A DNA stretch of 64,000 bases from Streptomyces djakartensis (GTDB lineage: Bacteria; Actinomycetota; Actinomycetes; Streptomycetales; Streptomycetaceae): NCBI RefSeq assembly GCF_014651075.1, contig NZ_BMWE01000017.1:1-64000 (forward strand), in the 5' to 3' direction. The notes under the pieces were generated by a model that was not told the DNA's origin, ran no database searches, and was given only the letters and a program-made list of their open reading frames with translations. Positions 35,506-43,517 of this stretch are shown piece after piece. Numbering within the stretch: the stretch's first letter is position 1; every line of letters begins with the position of its first letter. Position numbers and translations under genes: made by a program.

Positions 35506-35550
35506 CCGGCACCCCTATAGACGTCCCGCACAACGGCGTGCGGAACACTG

Positions 35551-35597
35551 ACAGCGCCTGCCCCACAGTCCCCGACCGGACGCCGGGCAGGCGCTGT
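35551..35597. terminator. Bidirectional terminator between gltD and the FtsX-type ABC genes
   Basis: Perfect 13-bp stem ACAGCGCCTGCCC (35551-35563) with 35585-35597 and a 21-nt loop, between two convergent genes. Confidence 0.7.
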
Positions 35598-35606
35598 CGC
35601 ACGTCC

Positions 35607-36581
35607 TCAGCCGGTCCCGGTCCCGTTCCCGTTCACGTCGGGCCACACCTGGATGTGGTCCTCCTCCAGTTCCAGCAGCACCCGGTCCCGCATGTCCAGG
35701 GCGGTGGTGTACTCGGCCGGCAGCTGGAGGCGGCCCGCGCGGTCGAGCATCGCGTACTCACGGGCCACCACGGACTCCTGGCCCCTGTCGTCGACCTCGG
35801 TGCGGCGCAGGACCTCCGTCGAGGTGCGGCCGTCACGGATCGCGACCGTGCGGCGGACCTCGCCGGCGACCGCCTGGTCGTGGGTGACGACGACGATCGT
35901 CGTGCCGAGCTCCTCGTTGGCCCGGCGGAACGCGGCGAAGACCTGCTGCCCGGTCGCCGAGTCCAGCTCGCCGGTCGGCTCGTCGGCGAGCAGGACGGCG
36001 GGGGAGTTGGCGAGGGCGACGGCGATCGCGACGCGCTGCTGCTGCCCGCCGGACATCGCTCGCGGACGCCGGTCCCGGCAGTCGGCGACCCCGAGCAGGC
36101 CCAGCAGTTCCTCCGCCCGTCCGGCCCGTTCCCGCCGCGGGCGGCCCGCCAGCTGCAGCGGCAGGGCGACGTTCTGCGCCGCCGTCAGATACGGCAGCAG
36201 GTTGCGGGCCGTCTGCTGCCAGACGAAGCCGACCACCTCACGCCGGTACCGCAGCCGGGCCTTCGCGTCCATCGTCAGCAGGTCGCGGCCCGCCACCCTC
36301 GCGGCGCCCGCGGTCGGGACGTCCAGGCCCGCGAGGATGTTCATCAACGTCGACTTGCCGCTGCCGGACGCCCCCACCAGGGCCATCAACTCGCCCTCCC
36401 GGACCAGGAGATCCAGGCCCTGGAGCGCCTGCACCTCCACGGCGTCCCCGCCCCCGCGCCTGGCGAAGATCCGCACCAGCCGGTCGCAGGCGATCAGCGC
36501 GTCGTGCCCGTACGCCGGCCGGTCGCGGTGCCGCGCCGCCCGCCGCTCCAGCTCCGCCAGCGACCGAGTCGTACCGCTCAT
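35607..36581 (-). CDS. ABC transporter ATPase with C-terminal AbrB-like domain
   Basis: 324 aa from ATG 36581 (CAGGAGA upstream). The ATPase resembles the MacB/LolD class: Walker A GASGSGKST (70-78), Q-loop VGFVWQQTA, signature AMSGGQQQRVAIA, Walker B AVLLADEPTGELD and VVVTHDQ. From about residue 274 a further segment reads REYAMLDRAGRLQLPAEYTT, continuing ALDMRDRVLLELEEDHIQV. It has the D-x2-GR-x2-(I/L)P pattern of an AbrB/SpoVT swapped-hairpin domain, not part of a standard ATPase. Start overlaps the upstream permease stop (ATGA). Likely partners are the two FtsX permeases just upstream. The tail could be a dimerisation or DNA-binding element. Confidence 0.88.
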   Translation of the reverse strand: MSGTTRSLAELERRAARHRDRPAYGHDALIACDRLVRIFARRGGGDAVEVQALQGLDLLVREGELMALVGASGSGKSTLMNILAGLDVPTAGAARVAGRDLLTMDAKARLRYRREVVGFVWQQTARNLLPYLTAAQNVALPLQLAGRPRRERAGRAEELLGLLGVADCRDRRPRAMSGGQQQRVAIAVALANSPAVLLADEPTGELDSATGQQVFAAFRRANEELGTTIVVVTHDQAVAGEVRRTVAIRDGRTSTEVLRRTEVDDRGQESVVAREYAMLDRAGRLQLPAEYTTALDMRDRVLLELEEDHIQVWPDVNGNGTGTG

Positions 36582-39316
36582 CGCATGTCTCCTGCCCTGA
36601 GGTGAGTGACCGGTGTCCGACGGCCCGCCCACCATGCCTGCGCGACGGCCACCGCCCCCGCCAGCAGCACCGCGCACGCGGCGGGCAGGGCCAGTGACCA
36701 CACGTCGGCCCGCAGCACGGCGGCTCCCGGCCCCACGGTGCCGGACGCGTCGGCGAGGGCGAGCCGGTCCAGGTCGATGCCGGGGGCGAGCAGCCCCACC
36801 GTGGCCCAGCCGACGGCCATCCCGCCGCCGGCCGCGAGCAGCGCCAGGGGCAGTGCCTCCAGACCGAGCAGATTTCGCCCCTGGCGGGTCGTCAGGCCCA
36901 GGGTGCGCAGCCGGGCCAGCAGCGCGGCCCGCTCCGGCGCGGACCGCAGCATGCCGAGCACCACGGCGAGCAGGGCGTATCCCGCGCCCGCGGCGACGGC
37001 CCAGACGTAGATCCGTTCGGCGCCGGACTGCGACGGCGAGTCCGACAGCGCCGCGCGTTCCTCGGCGCGCAGCGTCACCGAGACATCCGGTCCGGCGCCA
37101 CGCACGGCCGCCCGCAGCGCCTTCGCGTCGAGCCCGGCACCGGTCGCCAGCAGGATCGCGGGACCGCCGAAGCCCTTCAGGCCCGCCGCGTCGACCAGCA
37201 GGAACTCACCATCGGGGACGGCCGGGGTGCGGGAGCGCACGGTGGTGATCCGCACGGTGACGGCACCGCCGTCCGTCCAGATCCTGCGCGGCGACCGCCC
37301 GAGCCGCTCGGCGACCCCGGGGGAGGCGACAGCGTCCAGCACCCCGCCCCCGGTCCCCAGCCGCTCGGGCGCGAACCCCCCGAGCCCCGTCCGCCGGGCC
37401 AGCCCCGCGTAGGTGTCCGGCTCCACCCCGACCACCGTCAGCGACCTCCTGTCGTCGGACGCGCGCTCCGACGCGAACCCGATCCCCACCGCCGTGACCT
37501 GCCGCACGCCCGCCACATCCCGTACCGCCCGCGCCAGCCCGGCCGGGAGCGGGGCGCCGTCGGTCGTCTCGATCCGCGCGTCCGCACCCGTCTCAAGCAG
37601 CGCCACCCGGTCCCGGGCGTCCGCCACGCCCGTCAGCACGGACCCGCCGAACGCGGCCGTAGTCAGGGCCGTCAGCAGGGCGAGCAGCGGGAGCGTGGCG
37701 ACCGCCGCCGGTGAGCGGCCCGCGCGGGCCAGCGACAGGAACCCGACCACGCCGCGCAGTCGCCCGGCCGGACCCGCGGCCCACCGCAGGGGCAGCGGGT
37801 ACAGCCGCACCAGCAGCAGGGCGGCGACCAGCCCGACGAGCACCGGGGCGGCGCTCACCAGCAGATCGCCCGCACCACCGTCCGTACCGCGGCGGCGCAG
37901 CGCCGCCACCGAGCCGGCGGCCAGCGCCAGCAGGGTCAGTTCGGCGACCGCGCGGCGGCCGCCGGGTCTGGCGTGGGCGAGGTCGTCGCGCTCCTGGTGC
38001 GCCCGCGGCCGGCGATGCGCCACCACGGCGCGCACCGGCAGCACGGCACAGGCGAGCAGGGCCACGGCACCCGCCCCGAGTACGGAGGACAGCGACCGGG
38101 CCCCCTCCACGGCGAACACCGCGAGCAGCAGACCGCCGGCCGCGGCGGGCACCGCCGGAACGGCGCTCTCGGCCAGCAGCCGCCCGGCGATGCCGCCGAG
38201 GGAGCCGCCCCGGGCGCGCAGCAGGGCGAGTTCGGCGTAGCGGCGGGCGGCGGCCAGAGAACCGCTCATGACCAGGACGATCACGGCGACCGTGGCGATC
38301 CCGAAGGCCGCGACGGCGACCACGGGCGTGATCGCCTCACGCGTCTCCGTATAGGCGCCGACGACCTGCTCCAGGCCGGTGGACAACTGCGCCGTCGGAC
38401 CGGCGGCTCCCCGCATCCGCACCAGCCCCGGCCCGTCCTCGAGGGACGCGACCGCCTCGACGAGCGCCGGGGCGTCCGCCGCGGTGAGCCGCCCCGTCGC
38501 GGGCGCGAACCGCCAGTACCTCTCCGGCTCGCCCTGGCCGCCCAGCAGCGCCGGGGCGGCCCCGGGCGCCAGCAGCACGCCCGCCTCCCAGTAGTACCGC
38601 GGCGGACGGGCGTTGGTGCTCGCCAGGGCCGGTGTACGCAGGACCGGCTCAGCGGACCAGTAACTGCCCTGCGGATGCCGGGGTTCGAGGACGCCGGTGA
38701 TCCGCACGGTCAGCGGGCCGTCCGGGAAGCCGGCCAGGGTGAGCGTGGACCCGGCCCGCAGCCGCAATGTGCGGGCGGTCTCGGCGGTCACGGCGCCTTC
38801 CACCGCCCGCGTCTCCATGGTCACCGAGGTGCCGGCGGTGGGCAGCCGGCCCTCCCGCACGGTGGCGTGGCCGGCCGCACCCGACTGCGCGAGCAGGGTG
38901 AAGCGGGGCGGCAGTCCGTCCGGCCGGGGCAGCGCCGCGTCCAGGCCCTCCAGGCTCTGCCCGGTCCGCAGCCCGTACGCCGACTCGGCCGGGTCCGCCC
39001 GCAGCGGCTCGGGCAGCAGTGCTCGCGCCGTGCCGCCGACCGCCGCGAGCGCCTCCGGCCGCACCGCGTCCGCACGCGCCTCGTCCGGCTGTTCGAGACC
39101 GGGCCGCGGCGCCCTCAGCTCCAGCACCGTGGACTCGGGGGCGGCGGTGGCGACGGACACGCGCAGCCCCTCCGTCTCGTACGCCTCGACGGCCCGGGGC
39201 AGGACGGCCACGAGAAACGCCGTGACCAGGACCAGCGCCCCGAACGCGACAGCGGACCAGGGCGCGGCCCGCAGCCGGGTCCGCACCCAGGGCGCGCCCC
39301 GAGTGTTGCGCGGCAT
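36578..39316 (-). CDS. Large FtsX-family permease, 912 aa
   Basis: Membrane subunit of a MacB/FtsX-type transporter. One N-terminal helix (SAVAFGALVLVTAFLVAVLP) is followed by a large extracytoplasmic domain of about 290 residues. A cluster of helices near residue 335 (VVAVAAFGIATVAVIVLVMS) follows, then further helices, a second large outer domain and a final group of three. The duplicated FtsX layout with two outer domains is larger than the usual 400 aa of MacB. ATG 39316 has GGGAGAGG upstream and is 1 nt after the stop of the first permease. No substrate is evident. Confidence 0.88.
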   Translation of the reverse strand: MPRNTRGAPWVRTRLRAAPWSAVAFGALVLVTAFLVAVLPRAVEAYETEGLRVSVATAAPESTVLELRAPRPGLEQPDEARADAVRPEALAAVGGTARALLPEPLRADPAESAYGLRTGQSLEGLDAALPRPDGLPPRFTLLAQSGAAGHATVREGRLPTAGTSVTMETRAVEGAVTAETARTLRLRAGSTLTLAGFPDGPLTVRITGVLEPRHPQGSYWSAEPVLRTPALASTNARPPRYYWEAGVLLAPGAAPALLGGQGEPERYWRFAPATGRLTAADAPALVEAVASLEDGPGLVRMRGAAGPTAQLSTGLEQVVGAYTETREAITPVVAVAAFGIATVAVIVLVMSGSLAAARRYAELALLRARGGSLGGIAGRLLAESAVPAVPAAAGGLLLAVFAVEGARSLSSVLGAGAVALLACAVLPVRAVVAHRRPRAHQERDDLAHARPGGRRAVAELTLLALAAGSVAALRRRGTDGGAGDLLVSAAPVLVGLVAALLLVRLYPLPLRWAAGPAGRLRGVVGFLSLARAGRSPAAVATLPLLALLTALTTAAFGGSVLTGVADARDRVALLETGADARIETTDGAPLPAGLARAVRDVAGVRQVTAVGIGFASERASDDRRSLTVVGVEPDTYAGLARRTGLGGFAPERLGTGGGVLDAVASPGVAERLGRSPRRIWTDGGAVTVRITTVRSRTPAVPDGEFLLVDAAGLKGFGGPAILLATGAGLDAKALRAAVRGAGPDVSVTLRAEERAALSDSPSQSGAERIYVWAVAAGAGYALLAVVLGMLRSAPERAALLARLRTLGLTTRQGRNLLGLEALPLALLAAGGGMAVGWATVGLLAPGIDLDRLALADASGTVGPGAAVLRADVWSLALPAACAVLLAGAVAVAQAWWAGRRTPVTHLRAGDMR

Positions 39317-39317
39317 G

Positions 39318-42300
39318 TCAGTCCTCTCCCTGATGGCGGAGCGCGGCCGCCGGCTCCGCCCGGCGCAGCGCCGACGCGGCGGTGATCAGCAGCAGCGGGG
39401 CGGCCACCCCCACGAGAAGCAGAACCACCCGGGACACCGGCAGTTCGACGAGCACGGGCGGAACCGGCCGTGCGGCACCGGAGGTCAGCACGATCAGCGG
39501 CACGACGGCCCGGGCCAGCAGGGTGCCGAGGCCGAGCCCGGCGAGCAGACCGGCACCGATCAGCAGACTCTGCTCGGTCGCGACCAGCCGGGCGAGATCC
39601 CGGCGGGGCGTGCCCAGAGCACGCAGCACCGCGAACTCCGCGGACCGCTCCCGCCGCGCACCGGCGGCGCTCACCGCGAAACCCCCGGCGGCGAGGGCCA
39701 CGGCGGCCACGGTCACCGCCGTCAACGCCGAGCGCGGCCCGGCGCCGAGCGGATCCCGCAGCAGCTCGGCCGCGGTCTCGTCCCGCACCAGCACCTGCTG
39801 AGGCTGCAGGTCCGGGCGCGTCCGCAGCGCGGCGGCGACCTCGGCGGCCTTGCCGGGGGAGGCGTCCAGCCACCACTCGGTGGGGGCGAGCGGCGCGCTG
39901 CCCCGCTGGGCCAGCACGGCTTCGACGGCCCGCAGATCGAGCAGCAGCGCTCCACCTGTCATGGTCTCACCGGCCAGGTCGGTGGCGGTGGTGGGCAGTT
40001 CCTCGGCCGACCGCACGATCCGCACCCGCAGCTGTTCCCCGGACAGCGGTACGTCGACGGTGTCGCCCGGCTCGGCCCCCGCCGCCCGCAGGAAGTCTCG
40101 CGTGGCGACGGCGTTGAGGGTCCTCGGAGCCTCGGCCCCGGCGGTGTCGACGCGGACGGTGCAGGTCTGAGCCGATCCGTATGCCTCGCCGCTGTCGGAG
40201 CCGGTGCCGTACGACACGGCCGGCGGCGCGCTCCCCGACGCGGCGGGTTCCACGGCCCCACGGGCGACGACCTCGCCGTTCTTCGTCACGGTCCGGCCGC
40301 CCCGCCACCGTGTCCCGGCGGGCACCGGCACGGTCCGCGCGAAGCCGTCGCGGCCGGCGGCGAGCAGCCGCTCGACGGTGAACCGGTGGCGTTCGGCGCG
40401 GCCGGTGGGGGAGGTGTCGTCGAGCTGCAGTCCGGTCAGCCGCAACGGCCCGGCCGGGGCGGCGCGGCGGCCCGTCGCCGTCACGTCCAGCCCGAACGTG
40501 ATCCGGTGGACCCGGCCGTCCACCGGGACGTTCCCGGCGCCCAGCCGGTACGCGATGCCGTACCGGTCCTCGACGACCGCGGTCAGCGCGGGTGAACGGC
40601 CGGACGGGGAGCGCCCCGACCGGGCCTGCTCGTCCCTGATCCGCACGTCGAGGGCGAGCCGCCGCGTGTCCTCGGGGAGCCGCACGGCCCGGTCCCGGTC
40701 CGGAGCGGGCGGCGCCAGTGCCCGCAGCAGCTCCGCCGGGGGTTCGCCGGCGAGATCGCCGCGCATCCGCATCCCGTCCCCGACGCGGGCCGTGTCCAGG
40801 GCGAGGACCGTCGCCTGCCGTTCCCCGGAGAGGCCCACGGCCGCGCGGTGCGCGGGAGCGGCCTCCCGGACCCCGGGCAGCGCCGCGTAGAGACCGGTCT
40901 GCCCGGGGCTCCCGGGCCGGTAGTCGAGGACCCGGACCGACGCGCCCGTCCGGAAGTCGGCCTGGTCGCCCTGCGACCGGTCCCAGGACGCGCCGTGCCC
41001 GATCGCCAGCATCCCGGTCGCCACCGCGACGACCAGCAGCAGCACCGGACCGGCCCCGGCGAGCGGGCGCCGGCTGAACTGCCATCCGGCCAGCGCCGCG
41101 GGCAGCCCGCGCCCGCTCGCGGACCGCCGCTCGGCGAGCCGGGCCGCGAGCGGCAGCAGACGCAGCGTCAGCACCGTGCCCGCCAGCAGCGCCAGCGCGG
41201 GTGCCACGACCAGCAGCGGATCGATGCCCAGCCGGCCGGCCCGGTCCCGGCTCAGCACCCCGCCGCCGGTCGCGTCGGTCTGCCGGCCGAGCTGCCAGTA
41301 CGCCACGCCCGCGATCAGCAGCAGCGCCCCATCGGCTCCGGCGCGCACGGGCGCCGCCGACGTCGCGGCCCGGACCCGCCGCAGCCGCACCGGCGTGCCC
41401 GCCGTCGCCAGCGCGGGCGCCACCACCGCCACCGCGCAGGCCACCGCCGCCCCGCCCGCGACCAGCCAGACCTGGGCCGCCGGGACGACGCCGAGCCGCA
41501 GTCCGATCCGGTCGAGCGAGGACCACCGGGCGAGCAGCCGGGCCAGCGGGCCGGACAGCAGCGCGGCACAGACGGCGGCCGGTACGGCCAGCAGCAGCGC
41601 CTCCAGCGCGGCCAGTGCCGCGATCCGGCCGCGCGAGCCGCCCCTGGCCCGCAGCAGCTCGGTCTCGCCCGCCCGCTCGCCGGCCAGCAGCCTGGCCACC
41701 AGCAGCAGCGCGTACCCGGCGAGCAGCACCAGCTGCACGGAGACGATCAGCAGGGTGGACCGGGACACCAGCAGGGCCCGCTCGGTCCGGTCGAGCACCT
41801 CGGGCAGCCTGGTGCGCACGTCCGCGCCGCCCCCGAGCTCCGGGGCCTCACGCAGCGACTCGGCCGCGCGCACCGCCGCCGCGCGGAGCCCGCCGATGCC
41901 GTCGGTGGTCAAGGTGCGGTAGTCGGCGGTCGCCACCCAGCCGGTGCCGTCCGCGGAGGTGCGGCCGGAGGCCAGCACCGACGCGTCGGCCAGCAGCGGC
42001 CCGTACGTGGTGAAGTCGACGGTGCGCACGCCATGGCCGCCGAGGGCGTCCGCCTGCCAGTAGGGATCAAAGCTGTCGGCCGCCCGGTACACGCCGGTCA
42101 CCCGCACCCGGAGCGGCTCGTCGCCCAGCCGGTCGGTGAGCGTGAGCCGCGCTCCGGGCCGCAGCCCCAGCCGGCCGGCGGCCGCCTCGGGCAGGGCGAC
42201 GGGCACGGCGGCGGTGCGGTCCGCCGGGGCCGGGCCCGGCAGGCTGCCCGAGACCAGCCTGATCCGCGACCGGTCGAGGGCCGCGAAGTGCGTGAGGTCG

Positions 42301-42650
42301 GGCTGCCCGGCGCGGGCGTCGGCGTCCTGGAGGGAACGGGGCAGCGCGTACGGCCCGGACCGCTCCAGCCTCCGCACGGTCACCGGCAGTCCGCCGAACG
42401 CCTCCCGCGCCCCGCGCGCCACGGCCCGCTGCGCCGCCTCCCGGTCCTCTCCGGAGACGTCCGCCTCGACGAGCAGGGCGGTGGAGCCGGCGGCCCGGCC
42501 GCTGAGGGCACCGCGCAGCGCCGTGTCGCCGACGGAGCCGGAGAAGGCCGCGAGTGCGGCGAGTACCGAGGTGGTCAGCAGTACGGCGAGCAGGGCCGCG
42601 GTGAGCAGCAGCCGATGCGCGCGTGCGCGCAGCAGCAGTAAGCCCGTCAC
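39318..42650 (-). CDS. Large FtsX-family permease, 1110 aa
   Basis: First gene of the minus-strand ABC operon. Same plan as its neighbour: N-terminal helix LLLTAALLAVLLTTSVLAALA, a large outer domain, helices from SRSTLLIVSVQLVLLAGYALLL, a second outer domain with VVEDRYGIAYRLGAGNVPVDG, and a final helix group including VVLLLVGVAAPLLLITAASAL. FtsX segments such as EFAVLRALGTPRRDLARLVATEQ are clear. GTG 42650 has GGGGAAAGA upstream. Together with the 912-aa permease it probably forms a heterodimer driven by the ATPase at 35607-36581. Confidence 0.88.
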   Translation of the reverse strand: MTGLLLLRARAHRLLLTAALLAVLLTTSVLAALAAFSGSVGDTALRGALSGRAAGSTALLVEADVSGEDREAAQRAVARGAREAFGGLPVTVRRLERSGPYALPRSLQDADARAGQPDLTHFAALDRSRIRLVSGSLPGPAPADRTAAVPVALPEAAAGRLGLRPGARLTLTDRLGDEPLRVRVTGVYRAADSFDPYWQADALGGHGVRTVDFTTYGPLLADASVLASGRTSADGTGWVATADYRTLTTDGIGGLRAAAVRAAESLREAPELGGGADVRTRLPEVLDRTERALLVSRSTLLIVSVQLVLLAGYALLLVARLLAGERAGETELLRARGGSRGRIAALAALEALLLAVPAAVCAALLSGPLARLLARWSSLDRIGLRLGVVPAAQVWLVAGGAAVACAVAVVAPALATAGTPVRLRRVRAATSAAPVRAGADGALLLIAGVAYWQLGRQTDATGGGVLSRDRAGRLGIDPLLVVAPALALLAGTVLTLRLLPLAARLAERRSASGRGLPAALAGWQFSRRPLAGAGPVLLLVVAVATGMLAIGHGASWDRSQGDQADFRTGASVRVLDYRPGSPGQTGLYAALPGVREAAPAHRAAVGLSGERQATVLALDTARVGDGMRMRGDLAGEPPAELLRALAPPAPDRDRAVRLPEDTRRLALDVRIRDEQARSGRSPSGRSPALTAVVEDRYGIAYRLGAGNVPVDGRVHRITFGLDVTATGRRAAPAGPLRLTGLQLDDTSPTGRAERHRFTVERLLAAGRDGFARTVPVPAGTRWRGGRTVTKNGEVVARGAVEPAASGSAPPAVSYGTGSDSGEAYGSAQTCTVRVDTAGAEAPRTLNAVATRDFLRAAGAEPGDTVDVPLSGEQLRVRIVRSAEELPTTATDLAGETMTGGALLLDLRAVEAVLAQRGSAPLAPTEWWLDASPGKAAEVAAALRTRPDLQPQQVLVRDETAAELLRDPLGAGPRSALTAVTVAAVALAAGGFAVSAAGARRERSAEFAVLRALGTPRRDLARLVATEQSLLIGAGLLAGLGLGTLLARAVVPLIVLTSGAARPVPPVLVELPVSRVVLLLVGVAAPLLLITAASALRRAEPAAALRHQGED

Positions 42651-42785: not shown

Positions 42786-43517
42786 ATGACCGAGAACACC
42801 AGCCCGGGATCCGGTGCCGCCCTCGCCGGCGACGCGTCCGGCGAGGAGATGCTGCGGGTGGAGGACGTCCACCACTCCTACGGCACGGGCGCCGGGGCCG
42901 TGCACGCGCTGCGCGGGGCCTCCTTCTCCGTGCGGCGCGGTGAACTGGTCGCCCTCAGGGGCCGTTCGGGCTCCGGCAAGACGACGCTGCTGCACATGAT
43001 CGGCGGCCTCGACTCGCCGCAGGCCGGCCGTGTCGTCGTCGACGGCACCGACCTGTCGGCGCTGAGCGAGAGCGAACTGCTGGAACTGCGCCGCGACCGG
43101 ATCGGCTTCGTCTTCCAGTCCTTCGGGCTCATCCCCATCCTCACGGCCGCCGAGAACGTGGGCGTGCCGCTGCGGCTGCGCCGCGCCGAGCCGCGTGACC
43201 GCGAGGAGCGGGTGGCGCTGCTGCTGGCCCTGGTGGGTCTAGCCGGACACGAGGCGCAGCGGCCCGCCGAGCTCTCCGGCGGTCAGCGGCAGCGGGTCGC
43301 CATCGCCCGGGCCCTCGCCAACCGCCCGGCCCTGCTGCTCGCCGACGAGCCGACGGGCCAGCTGGACGCGGCCACCGCTCTGGCGGTGATGGAACTGCTG
43401 CGGGCCGTGGTCCGCAGCGAGGGCGTCACGGCCCTCGTCGCCACCCACGACCCCCAACTCCTCGGCCTGGCCGACCGGGTGCTGGAACTGAGCGACGGAG
43501 TGGTCGTCGAGGCGTGA
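42786..43517 (+). CDS. ABC transporter ATPase, MacB/LolD class
   Basis: 243 aa. Walker A GRSGSGKTT, Q-loop GFVFQSFGLIP, signature ELSGGQRQRVAIA, Walker B ALLLADEPTGQLD and LVATHD. This class works with FtsX-like permeases. It lies divergent from the two large FtsX permeases and has no permease of its own on the plus strand, so it may be a second ATPase for them. No C-terminal AbrB-like tail. Start ATG 42786 is preferred; GTG 42783 is an alternative. Confidence 0.9.
   Translation: MTENTSPGSGAALAGDASGEEMLRVEDVHHSYGTGAGAVHALRGASFSVRRGELVALRGRSGSGKTTLLHMIGGLDSPQAGRVVVDGTDLSALSESELLELRRDRIGFVFQSFGLIPILTAAENVGVPLRLRRAEPRDREERVALLLALVGLAGHEAQRPAELSGGQRQRVAIARALANRPALLLADEPTGQLDAATALAVMELLRAVVRSEGVTALVATHDPQLLGLADRVLELSDGVVVEA

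Follow-up and report, generated by a model that had tools for sequence, protein, structure and literature searches.

We find that an ABC transporter ATPase of the MacB/LolD type, here called T, carries behind a linker a conserved C-terminal tail that belongs to the AbrB/MazE/MraZ superfamily, and that T has a conserved companion in a second, tail-less ATPase, U, which is often encoded at a distant locus. The reading we prefer, and to which we give about an even chance of being correct, is that the tail acts as a dimerising tether between T subunits of a machine made of T, U and two giant permeases. The 64-kb stretch of DNA analysed (the window) is a portion of a 7.67-Mb genome in 109 contigs; the closest named loci are from Streptomyces, with T identities of 90-92% (L149, L151 and L173).

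T (35607..36581, minus strand) is a protein of 324 residues that matches Pfam ABC_tran at E 7e-32. It stands in an operon-like row on the minus strand, behind permease A (39318..42650, 1110 aa) and permease B (36578..39316, 912 aa), and its start and the stop of permease B share 4 nt. Both permeases are FtsX-like, with two matching stretches each; permease A lies above the Pfam FtsX cut-off (E 6e-17), whereas the neighbouring permease B is a weak match below it (E 0.0027). U (42786..43517, plus strand, 243 aa) diverges from this row. On the other side of T, a perfect 14-nt inverted repeat with a loop of 21 nt (35550..35598) lies before a convergent gene that we take to be gltD-like, and is probably a two-way terminator between the two genes.

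Residues 25-252 of T form an ATPase core of the MacB/LolD kind in which Walker A, the Q loop, an SGGQ signature, Walker B and the H loop can all be read by eye. MacB and LolD are the top NCBIfam models for T, both below their own cut-offs, and both are also found among its PDB relatives. The linker (residues 253-273; 35763..35825, minus strand) leads to the tail (residues 274-316, about 43 residues; 35634..35762, minus strand), and the end of the protein, residues 316-324, is without conservation. The initial annotation had placed an AbrB-like domain at 35640-35762, a segment that does encode residues 274-314 on the minus strand, and had rightly said that the ATPase at 42786 lacks it, as judged by both sequence and Pfam. 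A role in anti-phage defence was considered and rejected: in PADLOC, T and U have matches of ATPase type and the permeases have none, and phage families give a single weak match (E 0.07).

We assign the tail to the AbrB/MazE/MraZ superfamily because Pfam, PDB profile and predicted-structure comparisons, each of them weak, agree with one another and are together convincing. The sole Pfam family named in the tail region is MraZ (PF02381), at E 0.0046 for the whole protein and E 0.00056 for the last 78 residues, both below the curated 23-bit gathering cut-off (17.3 bits for T and 20.3-21.3 bits for the tail alone). This match is a single stretch without two tandem repeats, residues 279-316 aligning with positions 10-47 of the 72 in the profile. 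For the same last 78 residues, the NCBIfam models give E 0.01 for MraZ and E 0.15 for AbrB. All 35 tails of alignment A3 match Pfam MraZ at E ≤ 1 (best E 7.4e-6); of ten tail fragments rescored against this model one exceeds the cut-off (24.3 bits) and nine score 12.9-21.5 bits, and among ten full-length orthologues MraZ is seen at E ≤ 0.01 in three, always below the cut-off. Since the tail falls below profile cut-offs in those full-length proteins that were tested, routine annotation would probably describe them as plain ABC ATPases. A six-frame search of this 7.67-Mb Streptomyces-like genome with the MraZ model gave two matches, the better being the tail of T itself (E 0.008, against 0.06), and no MraZ above the Pfam cut-off.

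Searches starting from the tail lead to the same families. Among 177,635 PDB sequences the A3 tail profile has four hits up to E 10: a single MraZ and three AbrB (E 0.48-1.0). Scored with a tail profile, six MraZ-type frames and one MazE-type frame reach 17-23 bits, compared with a maximum of 5.7 for 100 column shuffles; these frames had been found with a tail profile and so are not independent targets. Likewise, hhalign aligns the tails to six MraZ second repeats with a probability of 97% over 38 columns, the six proteins having been retrieved with a tail profile. In the phylum genomes, tail profile A1 returned not only T proteins but also a MazE-type frame and MraZ-type frames, the latter aligned through the second repeat. 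Three of these frames were Pfam-checked, and the weak matches comprise seven MraZ-type frames (two Pfam-checked) and one MazE-type frame (L202). The last is an antitoxin-like frame of 125 aa in a genome (G572) that also carries a T gene. A further weak match (L193) was left unassigned, and two others, L194 (read as an SRP-receptor-like GTPase) and L196 (an unrelated enzyme), were rejected as chance. On these comparisons the tail has significant sequence similarity to the swapped-hairpin superfamily, and by sequence it lies closest to MraZ, in the second repeat, and not to AbrB. That repeat and the tail share a D-x2-GR-x2-(L/I)P motif, a helix, and a strand pair ending in D-H-x3-W; MraZ, however, is a soluble protein of two repeats, whereas T has one half-repeat attached to an ABC ATPase. 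The closeness to AbrB, SpoVT and MazE proposed initially thus holds for the superfamily but not for the nearest relative.

Modelled in isolation (58 residues), the tail is predicted to form a strand pair, a helix and a second strand pair, the kind of fold that the initial annotation had expected, although at low confidence (mean pLDDT 64.5). The full-length AF2 model of T is mostly confident in the ATPase, and the tail has values of 36-51 pLDDT per ten residues, so we take no geometry from that model. The best Foldseek matches of the isolated-tail model are AbrB, MazE, SpoVT, histone-like (Sso7c4 type) and VapB structures, with a best E of 0.11 and none at E ≤ 0.001, and the first unrelated entry appears at rank 21. 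A structure list ordered by Z contains 23 entries at Z ≥ 2 (4.6-2.0, none ≥ 5), of AbrB/SpoVT/MazE/VapB/MraZ type, and the best match of this low-confidence model (Z 4.6, rmsd 2.9, 51 aligned) is in the range where the tool warns of common arrangements. Two of the fold-match entries (C68 and C56) and the histone-like protein we presume to be members of the swapped-hairpin superfamily. The AbrB N-domain, SpoVT, MazE and VapB, as the top fold matches, resemble the predicted tail in the order of their elements and in length.

The tail is as well conserved as the enzyme that carries it. Across 43 orthologues the mean column conservation is 0.84 for the tail (274-315), 0.82 for the ATPase core (25-252), 0.69 for the linker (260-273) and 0.21 for the end (316-324), and the tail is thus conserved beyond a linker, as had been suggested for comparison. 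The linker, measured from IRDGR to the Y of EYA, is 18-24 residues long in 69 rows, with residues 253-259 mostly conserved and 260-273 less so. Eighteen tail residues are invariant in the 43 orthologues (E275, Y276, A277, D280-R284, which read DRAGR, Q286, P288, L295, R300, V301, L305, E306, D308, H309 and P314), and eleven in 26 more diverse tails (E275, D280, R281, G283, R284, Q286, P288, L295, R300, V301 and D308). The GR and the P of the LP to which attention had first been drawn are therefore invariant in both sets.

In overlapping genome samples, the tail query has matches in 64 of the 101 family-level genomes, in 121 of 197 at order level and in 55 of 296 at class level (20 of 114 genera), and the tail profile matches 21 of 296 genomes of the phylum, about half of these being MraZ-type, MazE-type or chance. 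Named genera among the best 80 of at least 575 relatives are Streptomyces, Actinacidiphila, Micromonospora, Actinoplanes, Dactylosporangium, Janibacter, Phycicoccus, Georgenia, Demequina, Actinotalea and Actinoallomurus. A close orthologue of T is absent from 20 tail-negative relatives, in which the best ATPase matches reach 43-52% to T (one of these genomes has no match at E 1e-45), as against 83-84% in two tail-positive controls; the tail and T are gained and lost together. We compared 90 ATPases from 46 hand-picked loci in a midpoint-rooted tree that omits matches below 180 aa and has long branches for L191 and L189/L190. All 36 typical T rows fall into a single clade (100/98), which is joined by deeper tailed rows with divergent tails from genomes G555, G569 and G758 (39 rows, 94/79). 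Next to them in the tree stand the U-like ATPases (38 rows, 96/84; 88/74 for T and U combined), whose branch, compared by eye, is a mirror image of the T branch. The tail is present in all intact T lineages examined. In one genome a tail-query match is split over two frames (G012:C1:3073042-3073262) and is likely a broken extra copy of T.

The association of U with T, which the initial annotation did not notice, extends well beyond the window. Among 197 genomes, counted as if related genomes were independent and with 14 candidates scored per genome in the U census, 117 have both T and U, four T only (these were rechecked), three U only and 73 neither. U is found at 68-91% identity in 20 of 20 T-positive genomes tested, including those Streptomyces in which it is not near T, and in none of 20 T-negative ones, four of which have matches of 51-53% that we take to be paralogues. 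In 13 of the 20 T-positive genomes U is remote from T: in 8 it is on a different contig, and in 5 a distance of 0.7 Mb or more separates the two. Of 100 fetched loci, 37 have U no more than 500 bp downstream of T (31 on the same strand and 6 on the opposite one), 4 have the upstream, divergent arrangement of the window, and 58 have no U in the fetched stretch; one locus (L095), in which the T match is split, was set aside as having no T. U is present at all 15 named loci outside Streptomycetaceae. Copy numbers of T and U are often 2:1 (for example in G102, G103, G105-G107, G083 and G089). Two genomes (G109 and G111) show an unusual expansion to six T and six U each, with every U adjoining a T.

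A strict rule that T never occurs without U was discarded, being broken by G268, with an apparently intact T and no U, and by G157, with U and no T. The other three of the four T-only genomes have a damaged T: G205 contains fragments of T and U, G253 lacks about residues 104-172, and G258 has lost the tail. G120 and G237 were counted as U-only on a match of 59%, which is possibly a paralogue. At L229, L230 and L231 the T genes are decaying (fragments, an internal gap and a lost tail) in genomes without an intact U. Six orphan-U loci of Streptomyces (L205-L210, around 7.4-8.3 kb) contain no giant-permease match. The neighbours of U at L205 are presumably KdpD/KdpE-like two-component genes, and most of L206-L210 have an ORF of similar size beside U. 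Since what is apparently the same site is occupied in G130 by T, U and two ORFs (940 and 1096 codons), whereas G119 has there just the final third of a T next to U, an orphan U seems to be the leftover of a lost second module, kept for a T elsewhere. In a Micromonosporaceae metagenome bin (L180:9275-10993), T, tail and U are found in one frame of 572 aa; as support for a T-U partnership this is a single bin in which an assembly error is also possible, and an in-frame GTG ahead of U could be a second start.

From these observations we propose a single envelope machine of the MacB/LolD/FtsX kind, in which T and U would be the two motor subunits powered by ATP and which would also contain the two giant FtsX-type permeases. 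T would bear a single swapped-hairpin (AbrB/MraZ-type) half-barrel on its linker and, because one barrel needs two such halves, the tail would most likely join two T subunits. Such a tether might hold a T:T pair together under one permease. Alternatively, if T pairs with U, a 1:1 motor would have one tail, the tether would act between two machines, and two T:U-permease units would be tied into a twin complex. The more specific proposal, of an envelope machine common among actinobacteria in which T and U are an obligate pair and two such motors are bridged through the MraZ/AbrB half-barrel that T has captured, giving a twin transporter with its two giant permeases working in step, we consider rather doubtful. 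Points against a tether are the low-confidence tail models, the exceptions G268 and G157, the frequent 2:1 ratio of T to U, and the 58 of 100 loci without U nearby.

The ATPase core and the FtsX-type permeases are shared with the MacB/LolD/YbbA/BceA-type ATPases (type VII and relatives), which differ in that here two different ATPases travel together and the permeases reach 912 and 1110 aa. The alignments of the 28 PDB sequences listed at E ≤ 1e-40 all stop short of the tail. A functional analogy is offered by the C-terminal extension of MlaF and the C-terminal domains of MetN, likewise C-terminal additions, proposed to hold or control the ATPase dimer (PMC7367683). MlaF that has lost this extension is reported not to function, and to recover for the most part when given a GCN4 dimeriser (PMC7367683). 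The tail of T would assemble or regulate its machine in much this manner, although the MlaF strap is about 25 residues long and no test here shows kinship between the two. In the open-access literature, surveyed by titles and abstract openings, we found no description of an ATPase with such a tail, and InterPro or Gene3D may already hold the architecture. If a membrane motor makes use of a fold of the transcription-factor type, this would reveal a new means of assembling or controlling ABC ATPases, and the T-U pairing provides a genetic handle on an actinobacterial machine.

The tail might instead be a docking site, forming a mixed barrel with, or being bound by, a soluble AbrB/MazE-type protein or regulator that switches the motor, by analogy with the binding of toxins by MazE-type halves. 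AbrB/MazE folds bind proteins in addition to DNA, the fold matches include MazEF and VapBC complexes, and the eleven residues invariant in the diverse tails, including E275, Q286, R300 and D308, perhaps exceed what a barrel core needs. The genes that recur beside T at 38 loci, as seen with a rough gene caller, are however U and the large permeases rather than a small partner, and we regard docking as unlikely.

A second alternative, that the tail still binds DNA and that the motor or a released T reports the state of transport to a promoter in the manner of MraZ or AbrB, has clearly less to recommend it. MraZ and AbrB are DNA-binding regulators, MraZ being described as a repressor (PMC8475190), and the lack of a genomic MraZ above the Pfam cut-off leaves room for a substitute. 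The reported DNA contacts of AbrB are R8, R15, R23 and R24 (PMC4022651). In the 43 T tails the position of R15, aligned with R284 of T, is Arg in all, that of R8 is Ala in all, and those of R23 and R24 are Arg in 7 and 4, this set being a trait of the DNA-binding members of the superfamily and not of the fold. D280 is also invariant. Retention of R15 is no proof of DNA binding, because AbrB R15A is reported still to bind DNA, with an altered oligomer state (PMC4022651). The second strand pair of the tail is acidic, unlike that of AbrB, and the tail core has a mean net charge of -2.9 in 35 tails and -1.7 in the 26 more diverse ones, but the charge is a weak argument against DNA binding, MraZ second repeats also having 0 to -4. 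The absence of the D-x2-GR signature from the tails of G555 and G569 also speaks against a DNA-reading role. A candidate site, the direct repeat TTTCCCCA(C/A)CC upstream of permease A, was rejected, being recognisable by eye in only one of eleven relatives, the closest (L173), and T is probably part of a membrane complex. Because R8, R23 and R24 of AbrB are not conserved in the T tails, dimerisation is favoured over DNA binding on present sequence evidence; the tail would then derive from a regulator of the MraZ/AbrB type and have since lost its reading of DNA.

We give equally little credence to the idea that an old fusion left the tail behind as a remnant that serves folding or stability and has no task of its own. 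Very divergent tails are indeed kept in the lineages of G555/G569 and of G758, but the tail core is conserved like the ATPase core, and its 18 and 11 invariant residues speak against mere persistence. Convergence, in which a beta-rich extension of the ATPase merely resembles AbrB, is the least credible explanation, since different routes give the same superfamily and hhalign reaches 97% with MraZ second repeats (themselves retrieved by a tail profile), against which stand the sub-threshold scores of the full-length proteins and of nine of ten tail fragments, the Foldseek E of 0.11 and the Z of 4.6.

In the deep lineage of G555 and G569 (T loci L189 and L190) the tail is kept with GPTGS replacing DRAGR. 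The signature has thereby lost its D and R, and these tails constitute a natural test of the purpose of the signature.
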